Shown: positions 21,943 through 56,570 of the stretch, piece by piece
Numbering within the stretch: the stretch's first letter is position 1
How the letters are laid out: every line of letters starts with the position of its first letter
From: an uncultured Alphaproteobacteria bacterium
GTDB taxonomy: Bacteria > Pseudomonadota > Alphaproteobacteria > Rhodobacterales > Rhodobacteraceae
Direction of reading: 5' to 3'
Length of the DNA stretch: 64,000 nucleotides
NCBI GenBank assembly: GCA_902533625.1
Contig: CACAMI010000004.1
Location: 1 to 64,000 of the forward strand
Made by a program: the position numbers and the translations under genes
Notes under the pieces: model-generated
The model's database searches: none
Told to the model about the DNA's origin: nothing
Seen by the model: the letters and a program-made list of their open reading frames with translations, nothing else

Positions 21943-22207
21943 TTAATTATTCAAAATTGTTTTATCATATATCTCTAAACCAAAATCAGAACGAATCTCT
22001 GGATATTCTCTTTCTAACTTCTCATCTTTTCTTCTTCGCAATTGAATGCACATGATTGCCTTTGAACTTCTTGCCAAGAACAGATAAATAACCCTCTTCA
22101 TTTAACCACTCTGCGATTTGGTCGAATGTCTTTCCCTTTTTTCTTTGTTTAGTGATTGTTTCATATAGGAAGAATTGGTATTCTGAGTATAAAGTAACAT
22201 TTAACTG
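21943..22207 (-). pseudogene. Remnant of a small recombinase-like helix-turn-helix protein, frameshifted
   Basis: On the minus strand a frame encodes LYSEYQFFLYETI, then KGKTFDQIAEWLNEEGYLSV and GKKFKGNHVHSI before stopping at 22022-22024. Shifting one base in the A-rich run just before that stop restores a tail, DEKLEREYPEIRSDFGLEI to a stop at 21943-21945. No ATG, GTG or TTG opens the first frame. The middle resembles the region of serine recombinases that reads (IA..LN..G..T..G..W....V..IL). So this is a start-less, frameshifted remnant lying tail to tail with the nuclease remnant. The 5' boundary given is approximate. Similarity to recombinases is my pattern reading, not a search. Confidence 0.5.
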
Positions 22208-22255
22208 TGAAGTTCTTTTAGAAATAGTAAAACAGAAGAAAAAGTCGGTGTTTAA

Positions 22256-22269
22256 TCTTGCGTACCTAC
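22256..22269 (-). repeat. 14-bp inverted repeat, right copy
   Basis: TCTTGCGTACCTAC on the plus strand, the exact reverse complement of 21456-21469. It lies upstream of the minus-strand gene remnant, so both copies have the same orientation with respect to the gene they precede. No target-site duplication is seen outside the pair. Confidence 0.6.
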
Positions 22270-22392
22270 CACCACTTTTGTCTACCGTCGAATGAGTTTA
22301 AAATAACTTATATAGAGTTTCGAAATCTAGAGAATAAAATTAAAACTGGTGTCTTTGGAAGTAAACCTTTTTTAAATGGGGAGGAGTAAATA

Positions 22393-47795: not shown

Positions 47796-48467
47796 ATGAT
47801 AGGGAAAATAAGTGGCACAATTGAGGTTATTAGTTCTGATTCGATTTTGGTTGATGTTGGGGGTGTAGGGTATATTATTAATATTTCTGCTAATACCAGA
47901 ACCTCTTTGCCTTCTATTGGTGAAAATGTATCATTATATACTGATATGCTAGTTAGAGAAGACTCAATTCAACTAGTTGGATTTATATCATCATTAGAGA
48001 AAGAATGGTTTGGTTTATTAACTTCTGTTCAGGGAGTTGGTGCTAAGGCTGCTTTAGCAATATTAGGGGCTGTTCCTTTGAAGCAATTGTCACGATCGAT
48101 TTCATTGGGTAATACAGACTATATTACTTCTGCTCAAGGTGTGGGCCCAAAAATCGCAAAGAGAATTTTGTTAGAATTAGGTCAAAAGGCTTTGAACTTA
48201 AATGACGATATAGAACAAAAAACTTCTTTGAGAAACCTCAATTCTAAAGAGATAATAGATGAAGAGAGTGGTCAAAATACCAGCCCAAGTGATTTTGAAA
48301 AGGATGCTGCTAATGATCAGGAGCCTGAAGCAATTTCAGCTTTAGTTAATTTAGGGTATGATAAATTAACTTCTACTAGGGTGGTTGCAAAAATTCTTGA
48401 CGAGAGTGGTGAATTGCAAATTTCAGAAATTATACGACTTTCACTGCAACGTATGGCAGGGGAGTGA
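47796..48467 (+). CDS. ruvA: Holliday junction DNA helicase subunit RuvA
   Basis: 223 residues with the OB-fold domain I ([12 protein letters not shown]), two helix-hairpin-helix motifs in [13 protein letters not shown] and [13 protein letters not shown], and the flexible linker plus domain III ([14 protein letters not shown]) that regulates RuvB. It binds the junction as a tetramer. Its stop overlaps the ruvB start (TGATG). Confidence 0.96.
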
Positions 48468-49516
48468 TGTCTGAAGTTGATACTGGTATGAATTTGGAGG
48501 GTGAGTTTCAGTCTGGAGATCCTGACAAAGCTTTAAGGCCTCAATTATTGTCAGATTTCGTAGGGCAAAATGAAGTCAGAGCAAATTTATCCGTCTTTAT
48601 AGAGGCGGCAAAGAATAGGCAAAATGCCATGGACCATGCTCTCTTTTTTGGCCCACCCGGATTGGGGAAAACTACTTTAGCGCAAATTATATCCAGGGAG
48701 TTGGGTGTAAATTTCAAGATGACCTCGGGTCCAATATTAGCAAAAGCAGGTGATCTGGCAGCTCTCTTAACAAATTTAGATGAAAGAGATGTTTTGTTTA
48801 TTGATGAGATCCACAGGCTTAATCCCAAAGTTGAAGAAGTTTTATATCCTGCAATGGAGGATTTTGGTCTCGATCTGATGGTTGGTGAGGGTCCATCTGC
48901 TAGGTCAGTTAGAATAGAGCTGCAGCCTTTCACATTAGTGGGAGCGACAACGCGTCTAGGATTATTAACTAATCCTTTAAGAGATAGATTTGGAATTCCA
49001 GTTCGTCTTGAATTTTATGAAAACGAAGACTTGGTTAAGATTATTTCTAGGGCGAGTCGGCTGCTAAATGCTAAAATAGATCAGTCTGGAGCAGAGGAAA
49101 TAGCGAAAAGGTCCAGAGGTACCCCCAGAGTCGCCGGAAGGCTTTTAAGGCGAGTAATTGATTTTGCCCAGGTTGAGGGTAACGGTCGTGTAACCTTAGA
49201 AATTGCAAAATCGTCTCTAACAAAATTGGGTGTTGATTCCTTAGGGTTGGAGGGCTCTGACAGGAGGTACCTTCTCCAAATTGCTGAAAATTATGAAGGA
49301 GGGCCAGTAGGCGTAGAAACTATCTGCGCAGCTCTTTCAGAATCGAGGGATGCTATTGAAGATGTTATAGAACCATATCTCCTTCAGGCTGGCTTAGTGC
49401 AGAGAACCCCTAGAGGTAGAGTTTTAAGTAAAAGAGCTTGGGAGCACCTAGGTATTAAAGTTCCGGAAACCGACACCAAAGCAACGGATAACCAAGGAAA
49501 TTTCTTTACTGAATAA
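48467..49516 (+). CDS. ruvB: Holliday junction DNA helicase ATPase RuvB
   Basis: AAA+ motor that drives branch migration, 349-350 residues. Walker [15 protein letters not shown], Walker [11 protein letters not shown], sensor 1 GATTRLG and arginine finger region [15 protein letters not shown] are intact, as is the winged-helix end (RTPRGRVL). The frame also permits GTG 48464. The overlap with ruvA implies coupled translation. Confidence 0.97.
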
Positions 49517-49566
49517 TTAGATAGAAGCACTGATTTGGGTGATAAAGTTAGAGGGAGGAGAATACA

Positions 49567-49962
49567 ATATCAAAGAAATTTGAAACACGCGTCTATCATG
49601 AGGACACTGATTTTTTGGGTATAGTATATTATGCTAATTATTTTAAGTTTATAGAGAGGGCTCGCTCAGAGGCAATTAGAGAAGTTGGTATTGATCAATA
49701 TAACTTGAAGCTTGAACATGGTATTTTCTTCGTGGTTTCAAAGTTAAAAGCTAAGTTTGTACAAGCAGCAAAATTTAATGACTTATTATTTACGGAAACC
49801 GATTTGTTGTACATCAAATCTGCAAGCATTGGGTTGGAACAAAGAATTTTCAGAAATAAGACTTTAATTTTTACAGCTGAAATCAAACTGGCTTGCATTA
49901 ATCAGGCTGGAAAGCCTGTTAAACTACCAAGTGAAGTAAGGAGAAATTTATTATCTATTTAA
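49567..49962 (+). CDS. ybgC: Tol-Pal associated acyl-CoA thioesterase YbgC, probable AUA start
   Basis: 131-residue hotdog thioesterase at the head of the Tol-Pal operon. The frame is open from a TAG at 49549. Conserved residues RVYHEDTD (catalytic Asp) and GIVYYANYFKFIERAR are both in frame, so any start at the first available TTG (49612/49615) would delete the catalytic Asp. The only codon at the right place is ATA at 49567, 6 bases after a strong GGAGGAG, giving (M)SKKFETRVYHEDTD, the family's usual N-terminus. I therefore annotate an AUA start, or else a mutated ATG. Confidence 0.85.
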   Translation: MSKKFETRVYHEDTDFLGIVYYANYFKFIERARSEAIREVGIDQYNLKLEHGIFFVVSKLKAKFVQAAKFNDLLFTETDLLYIKSASIGLEQRIFRNKTLIFTAEIKLACINQAGKPVKLPSEVRRNLLSI

Positions 49963-50038: not shown

Positions 50039-50758
50039 ATGGAATTAGGTATTACATATTTTGATCAAGCAACACTTACTGTAAAGATAGTGATGATCAT
50101 TTTGATAATTGCGTCTATTTGGTCATGGACCGTAATAATTGAAAAGTTAATTTATTTTCCCCTTGAGAAGAGAAGAATAGACCGAACTGTTAAGAAGGTA
50201 TTTGCAACTCATGAATGGGACAAAAGAAATGAAGAGTTGAATGAGAAACTGAAAGCAAAGAAAGAACTAAACATGACAGAGTTATTGTTTTATGAAGGGA
50301 TGAGCGAATTAGGGCGGGAAACAAAGTCAAATGACTTGAGTGAAACGGGAATTTCCCGAATAGAGCGCATTTTAGATCTTACATTAATGAAAGTTGGCGA
50401 TAAATATAATTCAGGTTTATACCTTTTGGCCACCGTTGGGTCGGTGGCTCCTTTTATTGGTCTCTTTGGCACTGTATGGGGAATAAAGAATTCTTTTGAA
50501 GAAATAGCATCTCAGCAAAATACAAATTTAGCTATAGTAGCTCCTGGTATTGCTGAGGCTCTTTTGGCAACAGCTTTAGGTCTATTGGCAGCTATTCCTG
50601 CAGTAATTTTCTATAACAAGCTTTCAAAAGATGCTGAAAGGTTAATATCTTTTCAAGAAATTTTTCTAGATAGATTTCTGAGAGAACTCTTATATTTTAA
50701 TGAAATATTAAAAGTTAGGCAGCAGAACGCTAGTGGATCAAGTGGTGATGGTTTCTGA
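50039..50758 (+). CDS. tolQ: Tol-Pal system proton channel subunit TolQ
   Basis: 239 residues with three membrane helices, the ExbB/TolQ/MotA fold. First helix IVMIILIIASIWSWTVII; the conserved later part is SVAPFIGLFGTVWGI and the third helix segment ALLATALGLLAAIPAVIFYN. With TolR it forms the proton-driven motor that moves TolA. TolR starts directly after the stop. Confidence 0.96.
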   Translation: MELGITYFDQATLTVKIVMIILIIASIWSWTVIIEKLIYFPLEKRRIDRTVKKVFATHEWDKRNEELNEKLKAKKELNMTELLFYEGMSELGRETKSNDLSETGISRIERILDLTLMKVGDKYNSGLYLLATVGSVAPFIGLFGTVWGIKNSFEEIASQQNTNLAIVAPGIAEALLATALGLLAAIPAVIFYNKLSKDAERLISFQEIFLDRFLRELLYFNEILKVRQQNASGSSGDGF

Positions 50759-51229
50759 ATGAAAAGTTTAGGGTCAGGTCAAAGTAAAAGAGTAAGTCGA
50801 TCACGGGCATCTAGGCAAAGTCTACAGTTAATGTCTGAAATAAATGTGACACCATTTGTAGATGTGATGTTAGTTCTGCTTATCATATTCATGATTACAG
50901 CACCAATGTTAACCGTGGGTATTGAAATAGAAATACCTGAGAGTAATGCAAAATCCATAAAGAGTACAAATAGCGATGAAACTCCCTTTGAATTATATGT
51001 TAATAATTTAGGAGAAGTTTCAATTAATAATACGTCGGTTAATGACTCTCAAATGATTAAAAAGCTTGAAGTAATAGCAAGTCAACGGGATGAAAAGATT
51101 TTATACGTAAAAGCTGATGGGAGGAATTCGTACGGCCGAGTATCGAAAATTCTGGGTGAGCTCGATAATGCTGAATTCCTAGATAAATATGTATTGGTTC
51201 ATCTTCCAGAGTCTGGGAAGGTGAAATAA
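50759..51229 (+). CDS. tolR: Tol-Pal system protein TolR
   Basis: 156 residues: one membrane helix (VTPFVDVMLVLLIIFMITAP) with the essential Asp in the FVDVMLVLL motif, then a periplasmic domain (KILYVKADGRNSYGRV). It starts at the base right after the tolQ stop codon. It completes the TolQR motor. Confidence 0.95.
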   Translation: MKSLGSGQSKRVSRSRASRQSLQLMSEINVTPFVDVMLVLLIIFMITAPMLTVGIEIEIPESNAKSIKSTNSDETPFELYVNNLGEVSINNTSVNDSQMIKKLEVIASQRDEKILYVKADGRNSYGRVSKILGELDNAEFLDKYVLVHLPESGKVK

Positions 51230-51231
51230 TT

Positions 51232-52368
51232 TTGAGGTTTGCTCTTCTTATCTCAGCAGCCTTTCATGGATTAATATTAGTTTCCGTAATAGGAGTTCAA
51301 TTTGAAGATCAGGAAATTGAAGAAGAAAAGCAAATTTCTGGACCCGAGGTAATCAGTTTTGAGGAGTATTGTGACTTAAGTTCCGTTAATTGCGAAGAGC
51401 CGGAAAATTCAATTGAAATTGAACCTATAAGTGAGAATTTTAATACAATTAAAGAAGAAAGAAAGAGTGATTTTGATGGAAGTAATAATGAAGTTTTAAA
51501 TCCTGACCTTGCCTCCCTCCCATCAGCTTTGTTAGAGCCTATAAATAAAGACAGTAAACCGCAGTATGAAATGGTAGAGATAGAAGAAGTCGAAAATCAA
51601 GAAAATGAAACGATTAATGACTTTAAGTCGGAAGGTAACGAAATAAAAACAGATATCATCACCTTATCTCATGAAAAGCCACCGCCCAGAAATAGTCAAA
51701 GAATTACGGAAGTTGCAAGTGATGATACTTCGCAGGAAAGTGATGTGAACATTCAAAATATTAGCACTGTATTTTCTGAAGATGCAAAATTAGTAGCGGA
51801 AGAGGAAGAGGGCCGCTCTCGTGATGAGAGTTCATCAGAAATCTCTGTAGAAGGTGAGTCAGTTGAAGCAGTATTAAGTGCAGCTCCAAAAATGGCTTTT
51901 TTGCCTCCAGTAAGGCCTAAAAATATTACCGATATGACAGATGATGAAGAAAGTTATGTAAGCTATGGAGATTTAGTGAACGAGGCTTTGGATCAGATCG
52001 CCGATCCAGATGATCAGCCTTCCATTAATGAAATTAACAATGCATCAGATAACTACACACTTTACAAGGTAGAAGAGGGCGTTAGATCTTTCTATAATAC
52101 AGCCGTTTTGTCTGGCCTAGCGGAGCCCGAAAAGTATAAAGTGAGGGTCAAGTTTTTTGTAAATTCAGAGGGTGTACGAAGAAGTAGTATAACGCTTTTG
52201 GAACCAAAAAACCCCTCCGATAGGCATATGATTTCCTTCAAAGCTGCAAAGAATGCTATTATCAAAGCGCTAACGGATAAAACAAATTATATATCTAGAG
52301 AAAAATATCCATCTGGTATAAACATAATATTAAATTTTACTCCGTCTTTGGGAGTTGGCTATGATTAG
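51232..52368 (+). CDS. tolA: Tol-Pal system protein TolA
   Basis: 378 residues; the start is TTG. An N-terminal helix (ALLISAAFHGLILVSVIGV) anchors it to the inner membrane; the His in AAFHG corresponds to the SHLH-type motif that contacts TolQR. The long middle part is strongly acidic (Glu/Asp/Ser-rich), not the Lys/Ala helix of E. coli TolA. The C-terminus (residues ~270-378) has the TonB/TolA-like domain that binds Pal or TolB. It overlaps tolB by 8 bp. Confidence 0.88.
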   Translation: MRFALLISAAFHGLILVSVIGVQFEDQEIEEEKQISGPEVISFEEYCDLSSVNCEEPENSIEIEPISENFNTIKEERKSDFDGSNNEVLNPDLASLPSALLEPINKDSKPQYEMVEIEEVENQENETINDFKSEGNEIKTDIITLSHEKPPPRNSQRITEVASDDTSQESDVNIQNISTVFSEDAKLVAEEEEGRSRDESSSEISVEGESVEAVLSAAPKMAFLPPVRPKNITDMTDDEESYVSYGDLVNEALDQIADPDDQPSINEINNASDNYTLYKVEEGVRSFYNTAVLSGLAEPEKYKVRVKFFVNSEGVRRSSITLLEPKNPSDRHMISFKAAKNAIIKALTDKTNYISREKYPSGINIILNFTPSLGVGYD

Positions 52369-53746
52369 TTTGAGATTTTTAGATAGGAGTTTAGGGTTGT
52401 TAAAATCATTAAAATTGTCTTTAGCTATAAAATTTTGCATTTTCTTCCTTTCTTTCGGGCACGCAAATGTTGTAGTAGCTCAAAACAATATAATAACTTT
52501 AGAGGGGAGTGTAAGTGGTGGTATTTTTGAGCCAATAAAAGTTGCCTTACCTGATTTCATAATTAGATCTGGAATTAATTATGGATTTATGAAAGATCTT
52601 TTGACAGTTTTGGAGAGAGATCTTGAGAATACAGGTTTATTTAAGAAAATTAATAGAAATGCTTACCTAAGTAAGGTTTCAGAATTTGATGCACCCATCC
52701 AATTTTCTGATTGGTCTTTAATAAATGCTTCTGTACTCTTGACGGCAGAATTAGAAAAAACTGGACCAGATGAATTTGAGATTAAATTTAGAATTTGGGA
52801 TGTAATTTCTCAATCAAAGTTAGGTAAAGGGTTAAAGTTTACCTCCAAAACAGCTAATTGGAGGAGAGTGGCCCACAAGGTTGCGGATGAAATATATAAT
52901 AGGGTAACTGGCGAAGGAGCTTATTTTGATTCAAAGATAGTATTTGTAGCAGAAAGTGGCCCAAAAAATAAAAGAGTAAAGAGAATAGCGGTAATGGATC
53001 AGGATGGGGCAAATGTAAGGTTTTTAACGGGCGGTAAAAATATTGTTATAAAGCCGATGTTTTCCCCTTCATCGGATAGTATCTTGTATACCAGTTATAA
53101 ATCAGGGGTGCCTCGGGTTTACAAAAAAGATTTAAAAACAGGGAAAGAGTCCACATTTAAGTCACTACCGGGGATGAATTTTTCACCACGGTTTTCACCA
53201 GATGGGAAAAATTTTCTACTATCAATTACTAGCAAAATGAACACTGACATTTATAAAGTTTCTTTGAGTAATGGAAAGAAAACTAGATTAACAGATGATA
53301 GGGCAATAGATACAGCACCAAGTTTTTCACCAAATGGAGAAATGATAGTTTTCGAAAGTGATAGAAGTTCAACCCAACAGTTGTATGTTATGCGTTCAAA
53401 TGGAAGTGGAGTAAAGAGGATCACCTTTGGCAAAGGTAGATATGGTGAGCCCGCTTGGTCTCCAAGGGGTGATTTGATTGCTTTCACAAAAATGGCAGAT
53501 GGTTACTTTTATATTGGTGTAATAAAACCAGATGGTACTGGGGAAAAAATTCTTACTAAGTCCTCTAAGGATCAAGCTCCAACCTGGTCTCCTAATGGGA
53601 GGGTGATTATGTTTTACAGGGAAACTTTGGGGGCTAGGGGAGCTCCTCACATCTATATGATTGATGTGACGGGAGCAAATTTGAGAAAAATGAAGACAGG
53701 ATCCTATTTTGCCTCTGATCCAAGCTGGTCTTCATTGCTAAATTAA
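52361..53746 (+). CDS. tolB: Tol-Pal system beta-propeller protein TolB
   Basis: 461 residues with a signal peptide ending near VVVAQ, an N-terminal domain, and a six-bladed propeller of TolB/WD40-like repeats (FSPSSDSILYTS, FSPDGKNFLLSI, FSPNGEMIVFESD, WSPRGDLIAFTK, WSPNGRVIMFYRE). It binds Pal in the periplasm. I took ATG 52361, preceded by GGGAG, over TTG 52355. It overlaps the end of tolA. Confidence 0.95.
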   Translation: MISLRFLDRSLGLLKSLKLSLAIKFCIFFLSFGHANVVVAQNNIITLEGSVSGGIFEPIKVALPDFIIRSGINYGFMKDLLTVLERDLENTGLFKKINRNAYLSKVSEFDAPIQFSDWSLINASVLLTAELEKTGPDEFEIKFRIWDVISQSKLGKGLKFTSKTANWRRVAHKVADEIYNRVTGEGAYFDSKIVFVAESGPKNKRVKRIAVMDQDGANVRFLTGGKNIVIKPMFSPSSDSILYTSYKSGVPRVYKKDLKTGKESTFKSLPGMNFSPRFSPDGKNFLLSITSKMNTDIYKVSLSNGKKTRLTDDRAIDTAPSFSPNGEMIVFESDRSSTQQLYVMRSNGSGVKRITFGKGRYGEPAWSPRGDLIAFTKMADGYFYIGVIKPDGTGEKILTKSSKDQAPTWSPNGRVIMFYRETLGARGAPHIYMIDVTGANLRKMKTGSYFASDPSWSSLLN

Positions 53747-53813
53747 AATTTTAGATCTACTTTATGAACATAGGAGTGGATAATTAATGGTAGCTAAAGA
53801 GAGGTTTTTTAAA

Positions 53814-54299
53814 ATGCACATTACTAAATTGACACTATTAGGTCTTTTATTGTTTGCTTTTGCGTCCTGTAGGTCATCTGAAGGCTCAGGAAACTATAGC
53901 CAATCAATTATTGGGGATGGTAGTATCAAAATTACTCAGTTAGAGGATAATAAGGCGCAGATAGGTGAAACTGTTTTTTTCGGGATTGATGAAAGCTCAA
54001 TTAGTTCGGAGATGATGTCAGTTTTGGACGCCCAAATCAGTTATTTGAAGGAAAACAAAAAACATAGCATCACGATTGAAGGTCATACTGATGAGCAAGG
54101 GACGCGAGAGTACAATTTAGGATTAGGTGCAAAACGGTCGAATTCAGTAAAAACCTATATGATATCTCAAGGTGTAAATGAAGATCGGGTGGAAGTTGTG
54201 ACTTATGGTAAGGAGAGGCCAGAAGAACTTTGTTCTGAAGAGCGCTGCTGGAAAAAAAATAGGAGAGCGGTTACGGTTATAGCTGGTGGGTTCAATTGA
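53814..54299 (+). CDS. pal: Peptidoglycan-associated lipoprotein Pal
   Basis: 161 residues, with a lipoprotein signal (KLTLLGLLLFAFASC, lipid-bearing Cys19) and a C-terminal OmpA-like domain with ITIEGHTDEQGTREYNLGLG and RVEVVTYGKERP. It anchors the outer membrane to peptidoglycan. ATG 53814 has AGAGAGG 9 bases upstream; an in-frame ATG at 53787 has AGGAG farther away. Confidence 0.94.
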   Translation: MHITKLTLLGLLLFAFASCRSSEGSGNYSQSIIGDGSIKITQLEDNKAQIGETVFFGIDESSISSEMMSVLDAQISYLKENKKHSITIEGHTDEQGTREYNLGLGAKRSNSVKTYMISQGVNEDRVEVVTYGKERPEELCSEERCWKKNRRAVTVIAGGFN

Positions 54300-54363: not shown

Positions 54364-55221
54364 ATGAGAACTTGGTCTTATTTCTTCGTTTATTTTTTGT
54401 GTCTTGCTATTGGCAGTCTCAGTGGCATCGCTAATGCAAATGAACAATTGGAGGAAAGCCCTTATGGAAACCAGGAAGAAATTACAACAATACAAAAAGA
54501 GTTGAATTCTATCTCTTTAGAATTGGCTAATCTTCAAAATATTTTTGTTTATGGGAATGACAAGGTTCTTTCGGAAAGTGACAACTTAGATATTTTTCTT
54601 AAGTTAAACCGTCTAGAGAATAGGCTGTCTGGAGCAATCGGTTTTTTGGAGCAGATAGAAAATAAGCTGGTAATAGTAACTAAAGGCCTAATTCTGAAAA
54701 TATCTGAAATAAATGAATTGCTGGGGCAAATTAGTACAGAAAATATTTCATCTAATGAAATTACCAAATTATATGATGATGTAAAAGAATCCAAGTTTAG
54801 CGAAATCGATAATGCAAACAATTTGTCAGAGGATCAGAGAGAGTATCTTTCCATCAAAACTATTTTTGATGATGGGAATTATGTATTAGCAATTGAAGAA
54901 TTCACTAGTTTTATAATGAGGTTTGAGTCAAGTAAATTAACATTACGGGCAAAATTTTTGAGGGCGGAAAGCAATCTAAGAATTGAAAATTGGTCCCTAG
55001 CCGCAGAAGACTTCCTTGACACCTTCAGTTCTAAACCAAATGGGCCATTATCCCCTTATGCTCTTTTCGGATTAGCCCTAAGCTTATCTGAGCTAGGAGA
55101 ATATGAACAATCTTGTGCGGCATTATTTGAAATTAAGAGACGGAATCCAGAGAAATTTAACCAATTCAAGGATCAGCTAAAGGTATCTACAAAAAGTTTG
55201 AACTGTAATGAGTACGATTGA
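54364..55221 (+). CDS. cpoB: Tol-Pal accessory protein CpoB (YbgF)
   Basis: 285 residues: signal peptide (YFFVYFLCLAIGSLSGIANAN), a helical N-terminal part with heptad-like leucines for trimerisation, and C-terminal TPR repeats starting near KTIFDDGNYVLAIEEF. It coordinates peptidoglycan synthesis with outer-membrane constriction. It is the last gene of the Tol-Pal operon and is followed by tilS. Confidence 0.88.
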   Translation: MRTWSYFFVYFLCLAIGSLSGIANANEQLEESPYGNQEEITTIQKELNSISLELANLQNIFVYGNDKVLSESDNLDIFLKLNRLENRLSGAIGFLEQIENKLVIVTKGLILKISEINELLGQISTENISSNEITKLYDDVKESKFSEIDNANNLSEDQREYLSIKTIFDDGNYVLAIEEFTSFIMRFESSKLTLRAKFLRAESNLRIENWSLAAEDFLDTFSSKPNGPLSPYALFGLALSLSELGEYEQSCAALFEIKRRNPEKFNQFKDQLKVSTKSLNCNEYD

Positions 55222-55244
55222 GTTATATACTGGAGATCATAAAT

Positions 55245-56570
55245 ATGTACCCAGAACTAGAAAATCATATTGCAAATAGTATTTGTGATTTAGAGAATAA
55301 AAGTGTTGGACTGGCAGTCTCTGGGGGAGGAGATTCCTTGGCTCTTTTACTGGCAGCCACAATTTGGGCGCGTAAATCAAAAATTCAAATCTTGGTGGCA
55401 ACTGTTGATCATGGATTAAGATCTAATAGTGGGAAGGAGGCGCTTTATGTCAAAGAAATATGCTCTACCCTATCATCTAAACATTTTATTTTGCCATGGG
55501 AGAAAAAGCAAAAAATAAAAAATTTACAAGACTGTGCTAGATTAGCTCGAATAAATCTTTTAACTGATTGGGCTAAGAGAGAAAAAATCACAACAGTATT
55601 ATTAGGCCATTCTGCGGATGATCAGGCAGAAACTATTTTTATGAACTTTGTCAGAGGTTCCGGCTTAGAAGGTTTAAGTGGTATGCCAGTAGAATTTAAG
55701 AATTCAGGGGTAGTGTTCAAAAGACCTTTTTTGTCTGTAAAAAGAGATAGGTTGCGGCAATTTCTCGTAGATCATGATTTAAAGTGGATTGAAGATCCTT
55801 CAAATTTTGATGAGAAATTCCAGAGAGTTAAGGTAAGAAATATTCTTCCAAAATTAGAATATTTAGGGTTAACAAGCGATAAAATTATTTCAACAGGTGA
55901 GAGGATGTCTATTGCTAGCTCCTTCATTAGATTAACTTCTGCTGCCCAGATAGATAACTGCTTAACAATTAACCGTTGGGGTGAAGTTCAGTTAGATAGG
56001 AGTAAATTTCTAGGGATGGAGCGGGAAATTCAATTGCGTATTTTATCATCAATAATTGGCGCATTTAGTGGGAAAAAATATAGACCTAGGTATAAGTCTG
56101 TAAAACTTTTGTTAGAAAAATTCTTGGCTCACAGTCTCAATATGGGGATTACAGTTGGAGGCTCGAAGGTGTCTGTGATAAAAAAAAATCATATTTTATT
56201 TCAAAGAGAAGTCGCAGCGATTCCAGAAGTTACAGATTTAAAAGATCTGGAAATTTTTAAGAAGAATTTTGATGGTGAGAAGTGTTTAGAAGAAAATAAA
56301 TTCCTGTGGGATAATAGATGGATAATTTCTGTAAAAAGTGCTAACTTTCTAGAGGATCAAAAAGTTGGTAGGGTGAAAAATAAGTCAATCCTAAAGAATT
56401 TTAGAGAAAGTATAAATGGTATGGCATATTATACTGCAGCTGCCCTTCCAGCCATTTTCAGTAAAGATGAAATAATTGCTATGCCAGGCCTAATCAGAAG
56501 TGATTCTTTAGAATTTAGTTTAGTTCACTCGCAAGAATCGTTTGTAAAAAGGTTGGAAAAGGGTCAATAA
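55245..56570 (+). CDS. tilS: tRNA(Ile)-lysidine synthase
   Basis: 441 residues. The PP-loop ATPase motif is SGGGDSLAL near residue 27, followed by VDHGLRSNSGKEA and LLGHSADDQAET. It modifies C34 of the AUA-decoding tRNA-Ile to lysidine, so that AUA is read as Ile. ATG 55245 has GGAG nine bases upstream; TTG 55218 would extend it into cpoB. Confidence 0.93.
   Translation: MYPELENHIANSICDLENKSVGLAVSGGGDSLALLLAATIWARKSKIQILVATVDHGLRSNSGKEALYVKEICSTLSSKHFILPWEKKQKIKNLQDCARLARINLLTDWAKREKITTVLLGHSADDQAETIFMNFVRGSGLEGLSGMPVEFKNSGVVFKRPFLSVKRDRLRQFLVDHDLKWIEDPSNFDEKFQRVKVRNILPKLEYLGLTSDKIISTGERMSIASSFIRLTSAAQIDNCLTINRWGEVQLDRSKFLGMEREIQLRILSSIIGAFSGKKYRPRYKSVKLLLEKFLAHSLNMGITVGGSKVSVIKKNHILFQREVAAIPEVTDLKDLEIFKKNFDGEKCLEENKFLWDNRWIISVKSANFLEDQKVGRVKNKSILKNFRESINGMAYYTAAALPAIFSKDEIIAMPGLIRSDSLEFSLVHSQESFVKRLEKGQ

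Follow-up and report, generated by a model that had tools for sequence, protein, structure and literature searches.

Weak AUA start codons are already known in other bacteria. In Staphylococcus aureus, infC, ccpN and citZ start at AUA, and an extended Shine-Dalgarno sequence is stated for infC, ccpN and the AUU-initiated cvfC1 (PMC13009471); with reporters, output was about 10% of the AUG level in poor medium, rising to as much as 30% for ccpN when the medium was rich (PMC13009471). An ATG-to-ATA change at the start of Listeria monocytogenes rsbW is reported to leave the gene translated at a reduced level (PMC13068326), and in Escherichia coli rpoS an ATG-to-ATA change lowered protein up to 5-fold (PMC12864459), with a value of up to 1% of ATG for ATA in E. 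coli cited in the same paper from Hecht 2017 (PMC12864459). Belinky et al. (2017; PMC5622118) found that genes starting with GUG or UUG have stronger Shine-Dalgarno sequences, the difference in substitution counts being not significant in alphaproteobacteria, and that switches of start codon were not significantly associated with how strong the Shine-Dalgarno sequence is.

Here we describe a candidate AUA start in ybgC, which encodes an enzyme of the cell envelope, of an uncultured alphaproteobacterium of the Rhodobacteraceae; by analogy it would be a further case. The gene lies in a stretch of 64 kb (the window) of a 98,972-base contig from a draft genome of 1.85 Mb (72 contigs, 74.65% complete). 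Like ccpN, infC and citZ of S. aureus, ybgC combines an AUA at the proposed start with a strong Shine-Dalgarno sequence (extended in infC and ccpN), but in S. aureus ribosome profiling located the sites and reporters were used to test three of them, whereas the evidence for ybgC comes from sequence only, and ybgC differs from them in being an enzyme gene beside tol-pal in an alphaproteobacterium (PMC13009471). As in rsbW, a single base would have turned ATG into ATA, the reduced but real translation being that of rsbW; unlike ybgC, rsbW is a regulator gene, and its ATA arose in acid-resistant laboratory derivatives (PMC13068326). The base change is identical in rpoS, from which protein is still made, but rpoS too is a regulator gene and acquired its ATA during laboratory cultivation (PMC12864459). 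The pairing of a weak start with a strong Shine-Dalgarno sequence resembles the pattern of Belinky et al., although that pattern concerns GUG and UUG, and AUA was not found in the main text of the study (PMC5622118). A literature search gave no title on a non-canonical ybgC start among the matches listed.

Judged by its profile matches, the frame at 49552-49962 (+; 136 codons from stop to stop) encodes a YbgC-type thioesterase. It matched TIGR02799 with an E-value of 8.5e-41 and 139.2 bits, about 2 bits below the cut-off of 141.35, and NF008065 with 87.9 bits (cut-off 185), while it exceeded the cut-offs of the subfamily model TIGR00051 (85.5 bits, cut-off 68.7), Pfam 4HBT (42.5, cut-off 20.6) and Pfam 4HBT_2. 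Residues 5-124 align with residues 8-128 of E. coli YbgC (chain 5kl9_A), the HEDTD motif is present, and Asp15 (codon 49609-49611, +) falls on E. coli Asp18, which we take to be the catalytic aspartate. Upstream lies ruvB (48464-49516, +; NF000868, 506.2 bits), with 50 bases between its stop codon and the ATA, and 76 bases downstream of the ybgC stop follows tolQ (50039-50758, +), whose best match, TIGR02796, scored 216.5 bits (below the cut-off of 221). Next come tolR (50759-51229, +; best match TIGR02801, 105.5 bits, below the cut-off of 127.3), a frame at the tolA position (51232-52368) that gave no NCBIfam match at an E-value of 0.001 and is perhaps a divergent TolA, tolB (52355-53746, +; TIGR02800, 389.8 bits, above cut-off), pal (53787-54299, +; TIGR02802, 135.1 bits, above cut-off) and, after pal, a YbgF-like gene with an NCBIfam match below cut-off. 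The gene thus adjoins tolQ and tolR, the location that defines a tol-pal-associated YbgC, and we annotate it as a putative tol-pal-associated acyl-CoA thioesterase of 131 codons plus stop at 49567-49962 (+).

Bases 49549-49572 (+) read TAG AGG GAG GAG AAT ACA ATA TCA, and the codons from 49552 continue past this TCA with AAG AAA TTT GAA ACA CGC GTC TAT CAT GAG GAC ACT GAT. The in-frame TAG at 49549-49551 (+) sets the upstream limit of the frame; the Shine-Dalgarno sequence GGAGGAG occupies 49554-49560 (+), and a six-base spacer, AATACA (49561-49566), separates it from the proposed start codon, ATA, at 49567-49569 (+), seven codons 5' of the arginine of the RVYHEDTD segment. The initial annotation had described the ATA six bases behind GGAGGAG, and this holds to the base, as does its statement that no ATG, GTG or TTG precedes RVYHEDTD in frame: between the TAG and position 49615 the ybgC frame contains none of the three, and the first to occur, TTG at 49615-49617 (+), lies past the Asp15 codon and would give a product of 115 residues without Asp15. 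By eye, a GTG-started frame of 14 codons in another reading frame (49539-49583, ending in TGA at 49581-49583) spans the ybgC start.

The genus is represented by two genomes in the set we searched, this one and a single congener, and the congener begins its ybgC with ATG. Its sequence, ATG CCT AAA GAG TTT TTG AAC AGG GTT TAT CAT, aligns without gaps with our codons from ATA through TAT CAT, so that its ATG stands opposite the ATA; the two proteins are 58% identical, RVYHEDTD is identical in both, and the congener frame has a stop four codons upstream of its ATG. More widely, a canonical start (ATG, GTG or TTG) lies exactly seven codons before the motif arginine in 20 of 45 motif-bearing loci, a set that counts this genome and excludes one duplicate (L031), the motif pattern being missing in 35 of the 81 loci, which were left out of these counts. 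Among the best matches of the relatives search (L002-L030), 18 of 27 motif loci have a start at exactly this distance, and in the remaining nine candidate starts fall in the 25 codons before the arginine. A search of the genome contigs brought up the congener together with 50 relatives, none above 44% identity, and no further copy of the species; the start-region pattern found no match in viral contigs. In the comparison with orthologues proposed at the outset, the ATA occupies the homologous start position; AUA is not conserved across the two genomes of the genus, since the only congener has ATG, an outcome that the initial annotation had named as refuting an AUA start. Of the known AUA starts, some are conserved among relatives and others are not. 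With the two proteins 58% identical, the congener ATG indicates the ancestral state but is no proof that this genome is wrong. Because the congener has ATG and 20 of 45 loci carry a canonical start at the same codon, ATA most likely replaced an ancestral ATG. Separately, two IMG/VR viral contigs carry a YbgC-like thioesterase that starts with ATG and is preceded by near-identical DNA (L111:1998-2363 and L112:1998-2093), with identities of 52% for L111 and, at the contig end, 84% over residues 4-34 for L112; the neighbours in L111 resemble, by eye, a T4-type gp47 nuclease and a sigma factor, and the L111 thioesterase may be phage-borne.

We compared the ybgC leader with those of 168 genes of this genome whose starts aligned to the congener's. 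Since a search for the 16S gene in this incomplete assembly gave none, duplex energies were calculated with the consensus anti-Shine-Dalgarno sequence. The ybgC leader reached -11.9 kcal/mol against a control mean of -4.54 (s.d. 3.55, n=168), and 3 of the 168 controls were as strong or stronger (a previous set of 73 controls had contained one), a count that is partly post hoc because the Shine-Dalgarno sequence was noticed before it was tested. By the longest exact match to the anti-Shine-Dalgarno sequence, five bases, the leader is ordinary: 57 of 168 controls reach five, and GGAGG itself occurs in 11 of 168. The congener ybgC leader gave 0.0, and several relatives with ATG starts also have strong Shine-Dalgarno sequences, down to -12.9 (L017). 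Across this genome, mean energies were -3.53 for GTG, -4.27 for TTG and -4.74 for ATG genes; genes starting with GTG or TTG have no stronger Shine-Dalgarno sequences than ATG genes, and we therefore see no general compensation for weak starts. The ybgC start region has no strong structure: its -4.0 kcal/mol compares with a mean of -5.66, and 61 of 168 controls are as weak or weaker. ATA makes up 3.8% of trinucleotides upstream of the 168 control genes, and the chance of finding ATA at this exact codon together with such a Shine-Dalgarno sequence is roughly 0.0007 if the two are independent, a figure arrived at post hoc.

A census of start codons drew on 859 kb of this genome, the window among them, and on 547 kb from the congener. 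We kept 215 non-overlapping frame pairs, some of them antisense shadows, and dropped six at contig edges, leaving 209, of which 168 had aligned canonical starts and 41 had none aligned. In 27 of the 41, a canonical start lies before the alignment start or within five codons of it in both genomes (by script count only), and the remaining 14 were examined individually. Six of these lie inside longer frames on the opposite strand; one (C1 90996-91619) has a canonical ATG further in, three (C2 19102, C3 14525 and C3 37376) reach a canonical start after a few codons, one (C4 68680) has its own canonical start and a split congener frame, and one (C2 754) has its own TTG start. An open stretch of 91 codons in the window (22022-22297, -), 71% identical to a congener frame, has no canonical start near the aligned part and no longer frame covering it. 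ybgC was the sole convincing gene without a canonical start, and an earlier, smaller census (87 pairs) had the same outcome apart from one contig-edge frame. General use of non-canonical starts in this genome is thus rejected on the sample of 209 pairs, and since ybgC is the sole exception in it, we are dealing, within that sample, with one gene and not with a general habit.

Taken with moderate confidence, our reading is that the ybgC start changed from ATG to ATA in this lineage and that AUA is probably still used at reduced efficiency, with little YbgC made. A single G-to-A change would have turned the ATG into ATA. The strong Shine-Dalgarno sequence would keep the 30S subunit over the AUA and raise its occupancy there, the ordinary initiator fMet-tRNA (CAU) would pair with the A and U of the codon with the third-base mismatch tolerated, and, as established initiation biology would suggest, the Shine-Dalgarno sequence would partly offset the rejection of AUA by IF3, whose gene was not found in this incomplete assembly. 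The product would be a methionine-initiated, full-length YbgC that keeps its presumed catalytic aspartate and is made at a fraction of the ATG level. Both the use of AUA and the low output are inferred from other bacteria, and low ybgC expression, raised in the initial annotation, is plausible on the same analogy. The proposal of an AUA start behind a strong Shine-Dalgarno sequence thus stands as to the homologous start position and the rank by duplex energy, and is weakened by the ATG of the only congener.

Two features of the translation apparatus were considered as contributors and rejected. In this genome the initiator tRNA (L164:1501-1577) carries CAU as its anticodon and is mismatched at C1/A72. 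By eye, its anticodon stem has an A-U pair at the place of the first of the three G-C pairs of the E. coli stem. The same tRNA is 100% identical in 9 of 41 genomes searched, this one included, and gave no match in the incomplete genome of the congener; being common to nine genomes, it cannot explain a lineage-specific change, and an unusual initiator tRNA as the cause of the ATA is rejected. TilS is indeed encoded in the same window, as first noted (55212-56570, +; TIGR02432, 165.5 bits over 55224-56567), but the suggested link to the AUA start was not borne out. TilS modifies the elongator tRNA-Ile, the reader of internal AUA codons, and because start codons are read by the initiator tRNA (CAU), TilS has no part in initiation; AUA is an ordinary internal codon here, accounting for 1,694 of 4,339 isoleucine codons in the control genes.

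The most serious rival is that the organism has ATG and that the draft is wrong at one base, whether by an error of assembly, amplification or consensus or because it shows a minority variant, a reading that we consider less probable than a real ATA but to which we give appreciable weight. The genome is a draft of 72 contigs and 74.65% completeness, and the congener has ATG. One single-cell pipeline, which may not be the source of this genome, is reported to leave 5 mismatches per 100 kb in benchmarks (PMC9771814, PMC11247762), and at that rate about 0.23 broken start codons would be expected per 1,800 genes (an assumed gene number), which is what makes error a serious rival. A scan for split genes, which detects only splits with both halves clearly matched, found no convincing case here in about 200 kb of aligned frames; this speaks against error, although it bears on indels and not on substitutions. 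All six apparent splits in this genome lie largely within longer opposite-strand frames, whereas three of seven in the congener have no such cover. Two congener genes (G001:C1 125532-127261 and G001:C8 5046-5843) are split into overlapping frames and single here, the splits perhaps being frameshifts or assembly errors in the congener draft. An error would also have no reason to land just where the Shine-Dalgarno sequence is among the strongest, equalled or exceeded in 3 of 168 controls. We prefer a real ATA because it coincides with an exceptionally strong Shine-Dalgarno sequence and because there are documented AUA starts restricted to certain lineages.

A real ATA could alternatively be a start-loss allele, giving little or no full-length protein and either tolerated or on its way to a pseudogene. 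It would fit this that the ATA occurs in this genome only, the one other genome of the genus having ATG, and that one cited value puts ATA at no more than 1% of ATG in E. coli; yet the frame is open over 131 codons with no accumulated stops, the motif residues, HEDTD included, are intact, and AUA starts in E. coli, Listeria and S. aureus have yielded measurable amounts of protein. Since AUA gives measurable protein elsewhere, and with such a Shine-Dalgarno sequence upstream, full silence is unlikely, and we hold start loss to be improbable. Translation from the TTG at 49615, the probable call of a gene finder limited to ATG, GTG and TTG, is very improbable: no canonical start precedes this TTG in frame, and a Shine-Dalgarno sequence of moderate strength lies upstream of it (-5.6 kcal/mol), but its 115-residue product would lack RVYHEDTD and Asp15, which the congener shares unchanged and which align with E. 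coli YbgC, and both the congener ATG position and the strong Shine-Dalgarno sequence lie upstream of it. That one base too few or too many upstream conceals a longer in-frame start, joining GTG 49539 or TTG 49535 (both present, by eye, in the other two frames) to ybgC, we consider least probable of all, given that the congener begins at this very codon, four codons after a stop, and that two thirds of the motif loci in L002-L030 start exactly seven codons before the arginine.

If AUA is used, the ATA and a strengthened Shine-Dalgarno sequence may together act as a valve that has evolved to keep ybgC output low and responds to IF3 and growth state; it would uncouple the dose of the thioesterase from the adjacent TolQRAB-Pal; we regard this as unlikely, and the medium-dependent AUA initiation of S. 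aureus ccpN provides a parallel for it (PMC13009471). Should the ATA prove an error, the locus would illustrate that one wrong base of a draft can pass for biology. If it is real, an AUA start in an alphaproteobacterial metabolic gene would join the few measured cases, and a gene finder that accepts only ATG, GTG and TTG could cut the enzyme short, past its presumed catalytic residue.
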